Shown here: one piece after another, positions 1,663 through 9,902 of the stretch
Numbering within the stretch: position 1 is the stretch's first letter
Layout of the letters: every line of letters begins with the position of its first letter
Assembly: GCA_025350985.1 (NCBI GenBank)
Contig: JANXWU010000133.1
Span: forward strand, 1-11,559
From: Spartobacteria bacterium
GTDB lineage: Bacteria; Verrucomicrobiota; Verrucomicrobiia; Chthoniobacterales; Chthoniobacteraceae
Direction of reading: 5' to 3'
DNA length: 11,559 nucleotides
The notes under the pieces: generated by a model
Told to the model about the DNA's origin: nothing
What the model saw: only the letters and a program-made list of their open reading frames with translations
The model's database searches: none
Position numbers and translations under genes: made by a program

Positions 1663-2603
1663 TGGAACTGCAAACTTCCACCGCTTGGAGCCGAAAAGAT
1701 TTGCTCGGGATTGAAGAACTGTCCGTGGGTGAAATCACGACGATCCTCGACACGTCCGCGGCCTTCAAACAGGTCGGCGTGCGCGAAATCAAAAAAGTCC
1801 CGGCGCTGCGCGGCAAGACGCTCGTCAATTTTTTTGTCGAGCCGAGCACGCGAACGCGCACGTCGTTTGAACTCGCCGCCTTCCGTCTGAGCGCCGACGT
1901 GGTGAATATTTCCACCTCCACCTCCAGCCTCACCAAGGGCGAGACGCTAAAAGACACCGCGAAAAATCTCGAAGCTCTCCACGCCGACATCATCGTGCTG
2001 CGGCACAGCTCCGCGGGCGCGCCGAAGTTCCTCGCGGACCGGCTGCAGGCCAGCGTGATCAATGCTGGCGACGGCGCGCACGAGCACCCGACGCAGGCTT
2101 TGCTCGATGCATTCACGATCCGGGAAAAAAAAGGCCGCATTGAGGGACTGCATGTCGCGATCATCGGCGACATTTTGTTTAGCCGCGTCGCGCGCTCGAA
2201 CATTCACGCACTGACTAAACTCGGCGCGCGCGTCACGCTTGTCGGGCCGAGCACCCTAGTGCCACGCACTTTTGAAAAACTCGGCGTCGCCGTCACGCAC
2301 GACATCGACTCGATCATCGCCGACGTCGATGTGGTGAACCTGCTGCGCATCCAGCACGAGCGGCAGCGGAAGGAATATTTCCCCAGCCTCGGCGAATACA
2401 CCGCGCTCTTTGGTTTGACCAAACAGCGCGCGGAAAATCTGAAACCCGACGCGCTCATCATGCACCCCGGCCCGATCAATCGCGGCGTCGAAATCGACAG
2501 CGACGTGGCTGACAGCGGTCGCTCGGTCATCCTCGACCAGGTCACCAATGGGCTCGCCGTGCGGATGGCGGTGCTTTACCTCTGCGCGGGAGTGGAGAAA
2601 TGA
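1662..2603 (+). CDS. pyrB: Aspartate carbamoyltransferase catalytic chain
   Basis: The product condenses carbamoyl phosphate with aspartate to carbamoyl-aspartate, the second step of UMP synthesis. It has 313 residues, normal for the catalytic chain. The carbamoyl-phosphate loop STRTR is at 62-66, the 80s-loop lysine at K92 (LTKGET), R114 follows in LRHSS, HPTQ is at 142-145, and [10 protein letters not shown] lies near the C-terminus, so the active site looks intact. The start at 1662 has GGAGG at 1648-1652, nine bases upstream; an earlier in-frame ATG at 1626 lies inside pyrR without support. No pyrI regulatory chain follows. The stop codon lies inside the left arm of the inverted repeat that bounds the inserted cassette, so the pyrB 3' end sits at an insertion junction. 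Confidence 0.97.
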
Positions 2604-2630
2604 CTAAATCCCAATGACCAATGACCAATT
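2599..2630 (+). repeat. Left arm of 32-bp inverted repeat
   Basis: This arm overlaps the pyrB stop codon (2601-2603) and contains the ATG of the four-helix-bundle gene at 2614. It pairs with 2970-3001 with one mismatch. Confidence 0.9.
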
Positions 2631-2975
2631 CGATTTGAAGCGGCGCACGAAGTTATTCGCATTGCGGATCGTGAAAATGTTTTGCGCTTTGCCGAAAAAA
2701 ACGGAGGTGCAGGTGATCGGTAAGCAAGTGCTACGTTCTAGGACTTCCGTGGGTGCAAATTATGCGGAAGCCGACAACGCCCGTAGCCGCGCCGAGTTCA
2801 TTCAAAAATGGGTGACTCACTCAAGGAGCTATCCGAAACGAGCTATTGGCTCGAACTCCTCATTGAAGGCAGCATCGTTTCCGCAGTGAAGTTGAACCCG
2901 CTTCTTCAGGAAACGCGCGAACTTTCGGCGATCTTCGCCACGATCATTAGAAAAACTCGCGCTCGTGAAAATTAG
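2614..2975 (+). pseudogene. Four-helix-bundle protein (S23 / 23S intervening-sequence protein family), frameshifted
   Basis: The first part reads to FIQK (residue about 65) and contains the family signature LRSRTSVGANYAEA followed by the SRAEFI segment. In that frame it then goes off into an unrelated tail ending at 2889. Moving back one frame at the A-run 2804-2808 restores a family-like C-terminal half (MGDSLKELSETSYWLELL, then a helical stretch to TAG at 2973-2975). Adding one A to the run would give a normal ~120-residue protein. Relatives form small basic helical bundles linked to rRNA intervening sequences and to the Avd proteins of diversity-generating retroelements; no reverse transcriptase is nearby. 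The frameshift may be a real mutation, a homopolymer sequencing error or, less likely, slippage. Confidence 0.8.
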
Positions 2976-3001
2976 TCATTGGTCATTGGGATTTAGTCAT
3001 T
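2970..3001 (-). repeat. Right arm of 32-bp inverted repeat
   Basis: This is the inverted copy of 2599-2630. It contains the TAG (2973-2975) ending the restored four-helix-bundle frame and stops one base before the pyrC ATG, occupying the place where a pyrC ribosome-binding site would be expected. Confidence 0.9.
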
Positions 3002-3002
3002 C

Positions 3003-4295
3003 ATGAAATCCACGCTCATCACCAACGGCCACATCATCGACCCGGCGAACGGGATCAACCGCGTCGGTGATGTTTATATTTCCGGCGGTAAAGTCGCGAA
3101 GATCGATCTTGACGCGCGGCTGCGGAAACATCCGCACGATCTGGACGTGATCGATGCGAGCGGGCTAATTGTTTGTCCCGGACTCATCGACATCCACGTG
3201 CATCTGCGCGAGCCGGGACAGTCGGCGAAGGAGACCATCGCGAGCGGCGCGCGAGCGGCGGCGGCAGGCGGTTTCACGACGGTCGTGTGCATGCCGAACA
3301 CTTCACCGCCGGTGGACAATCCGAGCGTGGTTTCATGGATCAAGGAAAAAGCGCGCGACGAAGCGTGCGTGAATGTTTTGCCGACAGGCGCGATCACAAA
3401 AAACATCGCCGGCGAAGAACTCGCCCCGATCGGCTCCATGCACAAAGCCGGCATCGTCGCGCTCACCGACGATGGGCACTGCGTGCAGAACCACGAGCTG
3501 ATGCGGCGCGCGCTCGAATACGCGCGGATGTTTGGCCTGGTCGTGATGGACCATTGCCAGGACTACAACCTCGTGGGCAAAGGCGTGATGCACGAAGGCG
3601 CGGTCTCGACGCTGCTCGGCCTCCCGGGCTGGCCGTCGGTGGGAGAGGAGATCATCGTCGCTCGCAATGCGCAGCTTGCGGAGTTGTGCGGCACCCCGAT
3701 TCATTGCCAGCACCTGAGCGCGGCGGGCAGCGTGCGCATCCTCCGCGAGGCGCGAGCGCGCGGCGTCAAGATTTCTGGAGAGATTTGTCCGCATCACATC
3801 GCGCTGACTGACGAGTCCGTTCGCGACTTCGACACTGATTTCAAAATGAATCCGCCGCTGCGCTCGCAGTCCGACATCGACGCGCTCATCGGGGGCGTCG
3901 CCGATGGCACGATCACCATCCTCGCCAGCGATCACGCGCCGCACTGCGGTTTTGAAAAGGAGGTCGAGTTCGATCAGGCGCCGTTCGGGATCCTCGGACT
4001 CGAGACCGAGCTCGGCTTGTTCATCGACCTCTTGGTTCACAAAAAAAAGGCGGTGGACCTGGCGCGGCTCGTCTCTCTGTTCACCCGCGAACCTGCATCG
4101 TTGCTGGGTTTGGAGCGGGGCACCCTTTCCGTGGGCGCGGTGGCGGATGTGACGCTGATCGATCCCGACCTCGAATGGACGGTGGACAAAAGCGCGAGCC
4201 ATTCACGATCGAGGAACACTCCTTTCCACGGCTGGGAACTCAAAGGGCGCGCAGTGCGGACGATCGTTGCCGGTGAGACGGTGTGGAAGTTGTAA
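3003..4295 (+). CDS. pyrC: Dihydroorotase, class I
   Basis: This enzyme cyclises carbamoyl-aspartate to dihydroorotate, the third step of UMP synthesis, in the cytoplasm. The protein has 430 residues, normal for the class I amidohydrolase fold. Metal-binding HVH is at 65-67 within HVHLREPG, CMPNT at 96-100, TDDG at 155-158, then DHCQD, CPHH, KMNPPLR and ASDHAPH in the expected order. DHCQD replaces the more common EHCED and GEICPHH the usual AEVTPHH, both mild variants. There is no Shine-Dalgarno before the ATG: the preceding 32 bases are the right arm of the inserted cassette, so expression may depend on read-through from pyrB. The gene converges on the RES toxin gene, 17 bases away. Confidence 0.96.
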   Translation: MKSTLITNGHIIDPANGINRVGDVYISGGKVAKIDLDARLRKHPHDLDVIDASGLIVCPGLIDIHVHLREPGQSAKETIASGARAAAAGGFTTVVCMPNTSPPVDNPSVVSWIKEKARDEACVNVLPTGAITKNIAGEELAPIGSMHKAGIVALTDDGHCVQNHELMRRALEYARMFGLVVMDHCQDYNLVGKGVMHEGAVSTLLGLPGWPSVGEEIIVARNAQLAELCGTPIHCQHLSAAGSVRILREARARGVKISGEICPHHIALTDESVRDFDTDFKMNPPLRSQSDIDALIGGVADGTITILASDHAPHCGFEKEVEFDQAPFGILGLETELGLFIDLLVHKKKAVDLARLVSLFTREPASLLGLERGTLSVGAVADVTLIDPDLEWTVDKSASHSRSRNTPFHGWELKGRAVRTIVAGETVWKL

Positions 4296-9587: not shown

Positions 9588-9902
9588 ATGCAGCGCGGTT
9601 TCATGGTCATGCAACGCACTTTCATCGCTCTGCAACGCATTTACATCACGATGCAGACGGTTTTCATGACCACGCACTCCATTTACATCGCGATGCAAGC
9701 CGGTTGCATGGCCATGCAGTCCATTTACATCACGATGCAGACGGTTTTCATCACTACGCAGTTCATTTACATCGCGATGCAAACCAGTTTCATGGCCATG
9801 CAAACGTGCTGCATCACGATGCAAGACGGTTACATCCCTATGCAAGCGCGTTGCATGACTATGAAAACGATTTTCAGCGTGATGAAAATGGGTTTCAGAG
9901 TC
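9588..9902. repeat. 21-bp tandem repeat array, 15 units
   Basis: Fifteen contiguous 21-base units start at 9588, with consensus close to ATGCAN(6)TTNCATNNNN. Bases ATGCA at the start and TT.CAT in the second half are nearly invariant, while unit positions 7-11 and 18-21 vary. Units 3-6 (9630-9713) and 7-10 (9714-9797) agree at 73 of 84 bases, so there is an 84-bp higher-order period. The last two units shift from ATGCA to ATGAAAA. Because 21 is a multiple of three and the unit lacks stops, both plus-strand and minus-strand frames stay open across it, giving heptads such as MQTVFIT (plus) or LHRDVNG (minus). The invariant and variable positions do not follow the wobble position of any of the open frames, so I do not call a gene. 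Confidence 0.92.

Follow-up and report, generated by a model that had tools for sequence, protein, structure and literature searches.

The stretch of Spartobacteria bacterium DNA analyzed here (11,559 nucleotides, referred to as the window) carries a cassette between pyrB and pyrC that is probably a mobile S23 element: a relative of the intervening sequences of 23S rRNA, belonging to a widespread family, whose protein probably recognizes the heptamers of its own arms. We define an S23 element as an S23 gene located between inverted arms built of 7-nt units, and the window cassette has this structure despite one unit that is off consensus.

The ORF at positions 1662-2603 of the forward strand, which we take to be pyrB (aspartate carbamoyltransferase; named from its sequence and not from a family search), starts with an ATG overlapping the end of the preceding ORF. 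The ORF downstream from the cassette (3003-4295, forward strand) is presumably pyrC, the dihydroorotase gene, also named from its sequence. The left arm of the cassette (2599-2630, forward strand) is composed of the heptamers AATGACT, AAATCCC, AATGACC and AATGACC, followed by AATT, and the right arm (2970-3001, forward strand) is its inverted copy, containing the stop codon of the S23 gene. The two arms, spaced by 339 nt, are complementary at 31 of 32 bases (97%), the figure given in a preliminary description of this DNA, which had also located the pyrB stop codon in the left arm, the end of the right arm one base before pyrC and an ATGA at each junction. All these assignments were confirmed: the pyrB stop codon TGA occupies 2601-2603, the right arm ends at 3001, and ATGA is found at 2600-2603 and at 3003-3006, the latter being the pyrC start. 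The heptamer AATGACC itself contains ATGA, so its presence at both ends is no proof of target duplication. Since one of the units (AAATCCC, among AATGACT and AATGACC) is off consensus, the arm fails the strict array filter, which is set at 17 matches out of 21 at lag 7; it passes the arm-matching test with a score of 25. In another part of the window, at 9599-9869, a degenerate 21/42-nt tandem array is located within an ORF and encodes a protein with a 7-residue repeat. This array (approximately 9599-9869) was considered as a heptamer array and rejected, as no lag-7 signal was detected.

Profile matching identified the gene of the cassette as a member of the four helix bundle (S23) family PF05635/TIGR02436. 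Its 5' part (2614-2808, forward strand; MTNDQF...EFIQK), in the frame of the ATG at 2614 inside the left arm, scored above the curated cut-offs of both PF05635 and TIGR02436. The 3' part (2808-2975, forward strand; MGDSLKEL...RAREN*), in a different frame and ending with the TAG at 2973-2975 in the right arm, scored above the TIGR02436 cut-off only. Together the two parts span the S23 domain. As the preliminary description stated, the gene extends from arm to arm, starting in the left and ending in the right one. It is not a single ORF: the window gene is read in two frames, which change at or near a run of A (2804-2808, forward strand), whereas its relatives read through in one frame. Neither this frame change nor the 7-base units of the arms had been recognized in the preliminary description. 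The frame change may be due to pseudogene formation, to programmed frameshifting or to an assembly error, and the window copy of the element may now be inactive.

A profile of 12 S23 relatives, to which the window sequence did not belong, matched the solved structure 2rld (6.8e-32), deposited with five chains. An S23 relative from Xanthomonas has been reported to be a homopentamer (PMC4990558). Among 204 other loci, the one closest to the two in-frame halves of the window gene was L086 (64% and 65% identity), which shares the heptamer AATGACC with the window and is flanked by other genes; L090, a close second, has the heptamer AATGATG.

The predicted RNA fold of 2590-3010 showed a paired terminal stem (-154.4 kcal/mol, z -5.6), and none of 100 shuffled sequences folded as well. 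The S23 ORF, out of frame in the window copy, lies inside this stem as it does in 23S rRNA intervening sequences. The cassette is located between pyrB and pyrC and not in an rRNA gene: no Rfam match up to an E value of 1 was obtained in 2400-3200, that is, no group I or group II intron or other catalogued RNA. No transposase is encoded in the cassette, S23 being the sole family match inside it.

The intervening sequence of Coxiella burnetii 23S rRNA has been described, in the portion of PMC4990558 available, as an S23 ORF located between inverted terminal repeats, with a 28-bp stem and with tandem heptamers in its 5' region. The same portion describes rRNA intervening sequences as sporadically distributed, as termed selfish and as cut by RNase III, and regards the function and origin of these sequences and of the S23 protein as unclear. 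As far as that text goes, the likeness to the window element lies in the S23-family ORF within inverted repeats or a stem and, for the Coxiella copy, in the heptamers. rRNA intervening sequences differ in being located in rRNA helices and excised by RNase III without ligation, whereas the window element is located at a stop codon between protein genes; the link between heptamer and lineage and the insertion into empty sites (see below) are features of the S23 elements described here.

The pyrB-pyrC junction was compared in relatives of the host. A DNA match to the region was found in 51 relatives, 29 of which, all from other genera, had loci that were read at the end of pyrB. None of these 29 showed an S23 match at that position, and pyrC was within reach in 25. 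Of these 25, 13 had a junction measuring 39 nt or less, three of them with a 4-nt ATGA overlap, the very stop/start arrangement that the preliminary description had deduced for the empty site. That description had regarded the presence of the gene in all relatives as evidence against insertion, and the gene was found in 0 of 29. These comparisons support the idea that the window cassette behaves as an insert; the relatives read belong to other genera only, so that the age of the insertion is merely bounded. The alternative that the cassette is immobile, an ordinary host gene of the pyr operon equipped with a regulatory hairpin, would agree with the single copy of the window sequence in the host genome and with the wide occurrence of S23 genes, which were found in 223 of 288 genomes of the phylum. 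The pyrB ends read in 29 relatives, the six different S23 neighborhoods within the host genome and the finding of one element type at different loci, with clean empty sites in plasmids (see below), all argue against it and leave it very improbable.

Six S23 genes were found in the host genome, the window gene and five others, each in a different neighborhood. All six are located between inverted heptamer arms and pass the arm test. The heptamers of the five other genes are AGTTAAG, CGGAACT, TGATTTC, GAATTAG and ATTTTCG; the six heptamers differ, TGATTTC and ATTTTCG being alike.

From 57 genomes of the order, 95 S23 loci were read. Among the 92 loci with enough flank, 76 had an arm score of at least 13, a score reached by 1.6% of 2300 mispaired controls and by 30 of 3000 random blocks, and the own partner arm was the best match in 67. 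Strong arrays with 7 as the best period (alone or tied with 14) were detected upstream in 36 of 94 flanks and downstream in 34 of 91; on stretches 600 nt away the same test gave 1 of 87 and 1 of 83. Of the 94 upstream flanks 46, and of the 91 downstream flanks 41, had no strong array at any lag.

Two further sets of loci were analyzed, one from named genomes of more than 10 phyla (best 80 loci by similarity) and one at phylum level (best 30 loci by score). When the sets, whose loci had been selected for relatedness, similarity or score, were pooled, matching arms were present in 156 of the 202 loci that could be scored, and 46 had none by the arm test. The armed loci amounted to 76 of 93 in the order, 62 of 79 in the named genomes and only 18 of 30 at phylum level, these last being the best-scoring S23 genes. 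Loci with too short flanks were omitted (three from the order, one from the named genomes and three from the pooled set), as were rows over the PF05635 cut-off that were short or low-scoring (G049:C47, G035:C196, G022:C154, G012:C43, G004:C26, G052:C2, G002:C3 and G055:C134) and PF05635 matches under the cut-off. These last matches are weak, and many are found within longer open frames of approximately 200-400 aa. In the named-genome set 12.9% of mispaired controls reached the same threshold, because the heptamers there are alike. Identity inside the arms was 0.70 at lag 7 versus 0.21-0.34 at lags 4-6 and 8-10, and lag 7 was the best in 137 of the 156 armed loci. The length of the 156 elements ranged from 386 to 667 nt, with a median of 470 nt, the arms having been searched for within 200 nt of flank.

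The association was also observed with ORFs as the starting point. A 779-kb sample of DNA contained 985 ORFs of 100-180 codons; eight of them had arms scoring at least 15, and all eight were S23 hits by coordinates; the S23 hits in the 779 kb comprise 14 genes, six of which are below an arm score of 15. The same DNA contains 45 arrays of 7-nt units, some of them far from S23 genes, versus at most six arrays for each of the other lags between 4 and 12. The 779 kb are a non-random sample of six genomes: 400 kb belong to one G042 contig picked for its two S23 genes, and the rest are stretches of G028, G012, G016, G007 and G021 picked for S23 genes or heptamer hits. Collinearity of the arms, compared with block-permuted heptamers, was discarded as evidence: it exceeded the mean of the permutations in 66 of 77 cases, with p <0.1 in just 19, and was not relied on because arms picked by local alignment are biased. 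Two partial S23 hits were obtained from phage records.

The heptamer sequence was found to follow the lineage of the S23 protein. Protein identity and heptamer similarity of the 156 elements were correlated, with pairs of at least 80% protein identity omitted from the test (Mantel r 0.51, 0 of 999 permutations), and a small correlation was obtained for whole arms in the opposite orientation (r 0.10, 2 of 999). Using only the part of the right arm beyond the S23 stop codon, available for 134 of the 156 elements, the correlation was 0.52, and also 0.52 after correction for GC content, compared with 0.06 (100 of 999) for the right arm in the opposite orientation. Between phyla, mean heptamer similarity was 0.59 for pairs with at least 55% protein identity (534 pairs) and 0.44 for pairs with less than 45% (83 pairs). 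At such protein distances non-coding arms should have become scrambled; selection therefore appears to act on the heptamer, the simplest cause being its recognition by the S23 protein. Co-inheritance of protein and heptamer without binding can also explain the correlation.

Insertion of S23 elements was followed by comparing occupied and empty sites of cyanobacteria. At site 1, on conjugative plasmids with flanks approximately 97% identical, an S23 element is present in Trichormus and Scytonema; the site is empty in Aulosira, Nostoc linckia and Tolypothrix and contains a decayed remnant in Nostoc C052. Site 2, on Nostoc plasmids, is occupied in three records and empty in five of those read. 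Site 3, on one of the site-2 Nostoc plasmids, carries a different S23 element and is empty in five records read. Site 4 lies between nrdA and nrdB; Nostoc edaphicum carries an element there, and Calothrix has the empty site (85% identity). The empty-site records H73, H74 and H76 are outside these counts. One element type was found at three different places in the cyanobacterial plasmids, with 78-83% DNA identity. The pairs of occupied and empty sites at the four plasmid sites show that S23 elements have been inserted. The proposal of the preliminary description that the cassette is a mobile-type insert at a gene junction was supported by similar cassettes at other junctions, by these plasmid pairs and by the pyrB-pyrC junctions of 29 relatives, which are without S23. 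The signs of target duplication were inconsistent among the four plasmid sites: a 5-nt overlap, GTAAT, was seen at site 1, and sites 2 and 3 are ambiguous. The window shows ATGA twice.

No heptamers were seen by eye at the empty plasmid sites. This bears on the alternative that S23 genes settle in pre-existing heptamer hairpins, the heptamers not belonging to the element but arising by slippage in the host. Isolated heptamer arrays do exist without S23, and so do small hairpins (the 45 lag-7 arrays of the 779 kb; G043), and rRNA intervening sequences replace hairpin loops, according to the accessible text of PMC4990558. The empty sites without visible heptamers, together with heptamers that follow the S23 lineage in a fixed orientation across phyla, which would be unexpected of sequences derived from the host, make this alternative improbable, and settling in pre-existing hairpins is disfavored at the sites read so far.

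The position of the elements relative to the neighboring genes was analyzed for the 136 elements whose upstream and downstream flanks were both usable, with genes called simply as longest ORFs. The elements were oriented sense in a gene run in 86 cases, antisense in 12, between convergent genes in 31 and between divergent genes in 7; with narrower limits the figures were 86 sense, 15 antisense, 28 convergent and 6 divergent. For the 98 elements located in gene runs, the median distance of the arm was 3 nt to the stop codon and 6 nt to the next start codon (p 0.016). Where the remainder of the spacer was at least 20 nt (39 elements), the medians were 5 nt to the stop and 59 nt to the start (p 0.002); in these wide spacers the element was at most 10 nt from the stop codon in 20 of 39 cases and from the start codon in 6 of 39, the stop being more than 10 nt away in 19 of 39. 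In the window, as at the four plasmid sites, the element begins in the upstream stop codon or a few bases from it. S23 elements show a tendency to adjoin the upstream stop codon, in the sense orientation within operons. This pattern fits targeting to stop codons; selection against other positions (survivorship) could contribute partly to the clustering.

These observations suggest how a mobile S23 element might act. It would be co-transcribed with the operon of its host, and its heptamer arms would pair into a long stem that is probably a substrate of RNase III, as for the rRNA intervening sequences. The S23 protein may bind the heptamer arms of its own element, as RNA or as single-stranded DNA, and steer the element, directing its copying into new stop/start junctions by means of host enzymes. 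Because 7 is not divisible by 3, a codon inside the 7-nt unit appears in all three frames; a unit containing a stop codon (TGA in AATGACC) would end upstream translation in any frame, which could make insertion at the 3' end of a gene tolerable. The element has no catalytic domain, so its movement requires something else.

This additional activity could be a reverse transcriptase acting in trans on an RNA intermediate, with S23 playing the part of the Avd protein of diversity-generating retroelements. PF05635 resembles Avd, according to the part of PMC10053308 available, the ratio of sense to antisense elements in operons is 86 to 12, and the window element is predicted to fold as a stable RNA. 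No RVT_1 hit was found in the host genome (88% complete), 54 of 95 S23 loci are in genomes without RVT_1, and no correlation was detected (rho -0.03, 57 genomes). The RVT_1 search of the 57 genomes led us to reject a requirement for a reverse transcriptase in the same genome at present; such an enzyme could have been missed in draft genomes or have acted in a past host, and an RNA intermediate of this kind is considered unlikely overall.

A DNA enzyme acting in trans on hairpins, e.g. a Y1 (REP-type) transposase, could also move the element, a route to which we give a similarly small probability. Matches to Y1 were found in 47 of 57 genomes, and the number of S23 genes per Mb was weakly correlated with that of Y1 per Mb (rho 0.40, p 0.002, uncorrected for genome relatedness). 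A gene-less mini-hairpin with a nearly identical arm (G007, see below) also favors this route, gene-less hairpins being known for REP elements too. On the other hand, five genomes bearing S23 had no Y1 hit, presence and absence of the two were not associated (p 0.30), and the arms vary among elements, so that one enzyme would not recognize all of them by sequence.

The preliminary description had named an arm sequence unique to this locus as evidence against its reading, and the outcome was divided. Within the host genome the arm was unique, no second copy being found at E <= 0.001 or with a 19-base pattern allowing one mismatch. Outside the host, a short hairpin in G007, which belongs to another genus, matched 24 of 25 bases of the window left arm and had no S23 match. 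G043 contained 16 matches to the AATGACC pattern and no S23 hit in the genome. The search with the arm/AATGACC pattern yielded 33 matches versus 9 for a backwards control pattern, with the control matching more in G055. The gene-less hairpin in G007 and the AATGACC arrays in G043 look like deletion derivatives or remnants. Heptamer hairpins without an S23 gene, with approximately 27-45 nt between the arms, were also seen in L301 (10500-10575), L293 (16682-16774) and L294 (374-473), resembling gene-less derivatives.

REP/RAYT elements and MITEs are short, palindromic and intergenic, and gene-less derivatives occur alongside copies that carry a gene. S23 elements are likewise intergenic and have gene-less relatives; they differ in that the S23 protein is a four-helix bundle and not a Y1 transposase, and in that the arms are heptamer arrays with no fixed palindrome. 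Avd of diversity-generating retroelements belongs to a similar protein family (PMC10053308, accessible part), and the window host has no RVT_1 match.

Intergenic heptamer repeats have been reported from several bacteria, as described in the available parts of the papers: GGGAATC in Xanthomonas, often as inverted pairs and nearer to the 5' neighboring ORF, and GGGGA(T/C)T in Nostoc, heptamer repeats being over-represented in bacteria (PMC4692102); TAACTGA in Beggiatoaceae (PMC4679880); and the heptanucleotide elements of Geobacter (PMC2700814). On this evidence they share with the arms of S23 elements tandem 7-nt units located mostly between genes. They differ in what they were connected with: the terms S23 and four helix are absent from PMC4679880 and PMC2700814, and S23 is not mentioned in PMC4692102. 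Apart from these repeats, IVP ORFs have been described in rRNA insertions of CPR bacteria (accessible part of PMC11270868), and a figure legend in a study that mined CRISPR systems mentions a 23S rRNA IVP domain (PMC10910872). No link of S23 genes to heptamer arms outside rRNA was found in the partial texts covered, a coverage outside which most subscription journals fall.

The S23 protein thus gains a likely partner, the heptamers of its own arms, under the rule that each lineage has its own heptamer, and S23 elements become a possible source for part of the heptamer repeats over-represented in bacteria. A broader proposal, which we put forward tentatively and at somewhat less than even chances, is that S23 elements form a general class of mobile elements without a transposase. 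A small, probably pentameric protein would read lineage-specific heptamers of the stem and target the stop codons of operons, probably via the transcript or the hairpin, using housekeeping enzymes only; rRNA intervening sequences, much of the heptamer excess and the stray four-helix-bundle genes of cas, DISARM and other operons would be its products.

S23 genes located in defense operons (L240, L241, L243 and L249) may be passengers that could be mistaken for defense components. In L243 the gene is located between csx2 and cas1, and in L249 between cas2 and cas1; in L240 and L241 its neighbors are drmD on one side and a methylase or restriction gene on the other.
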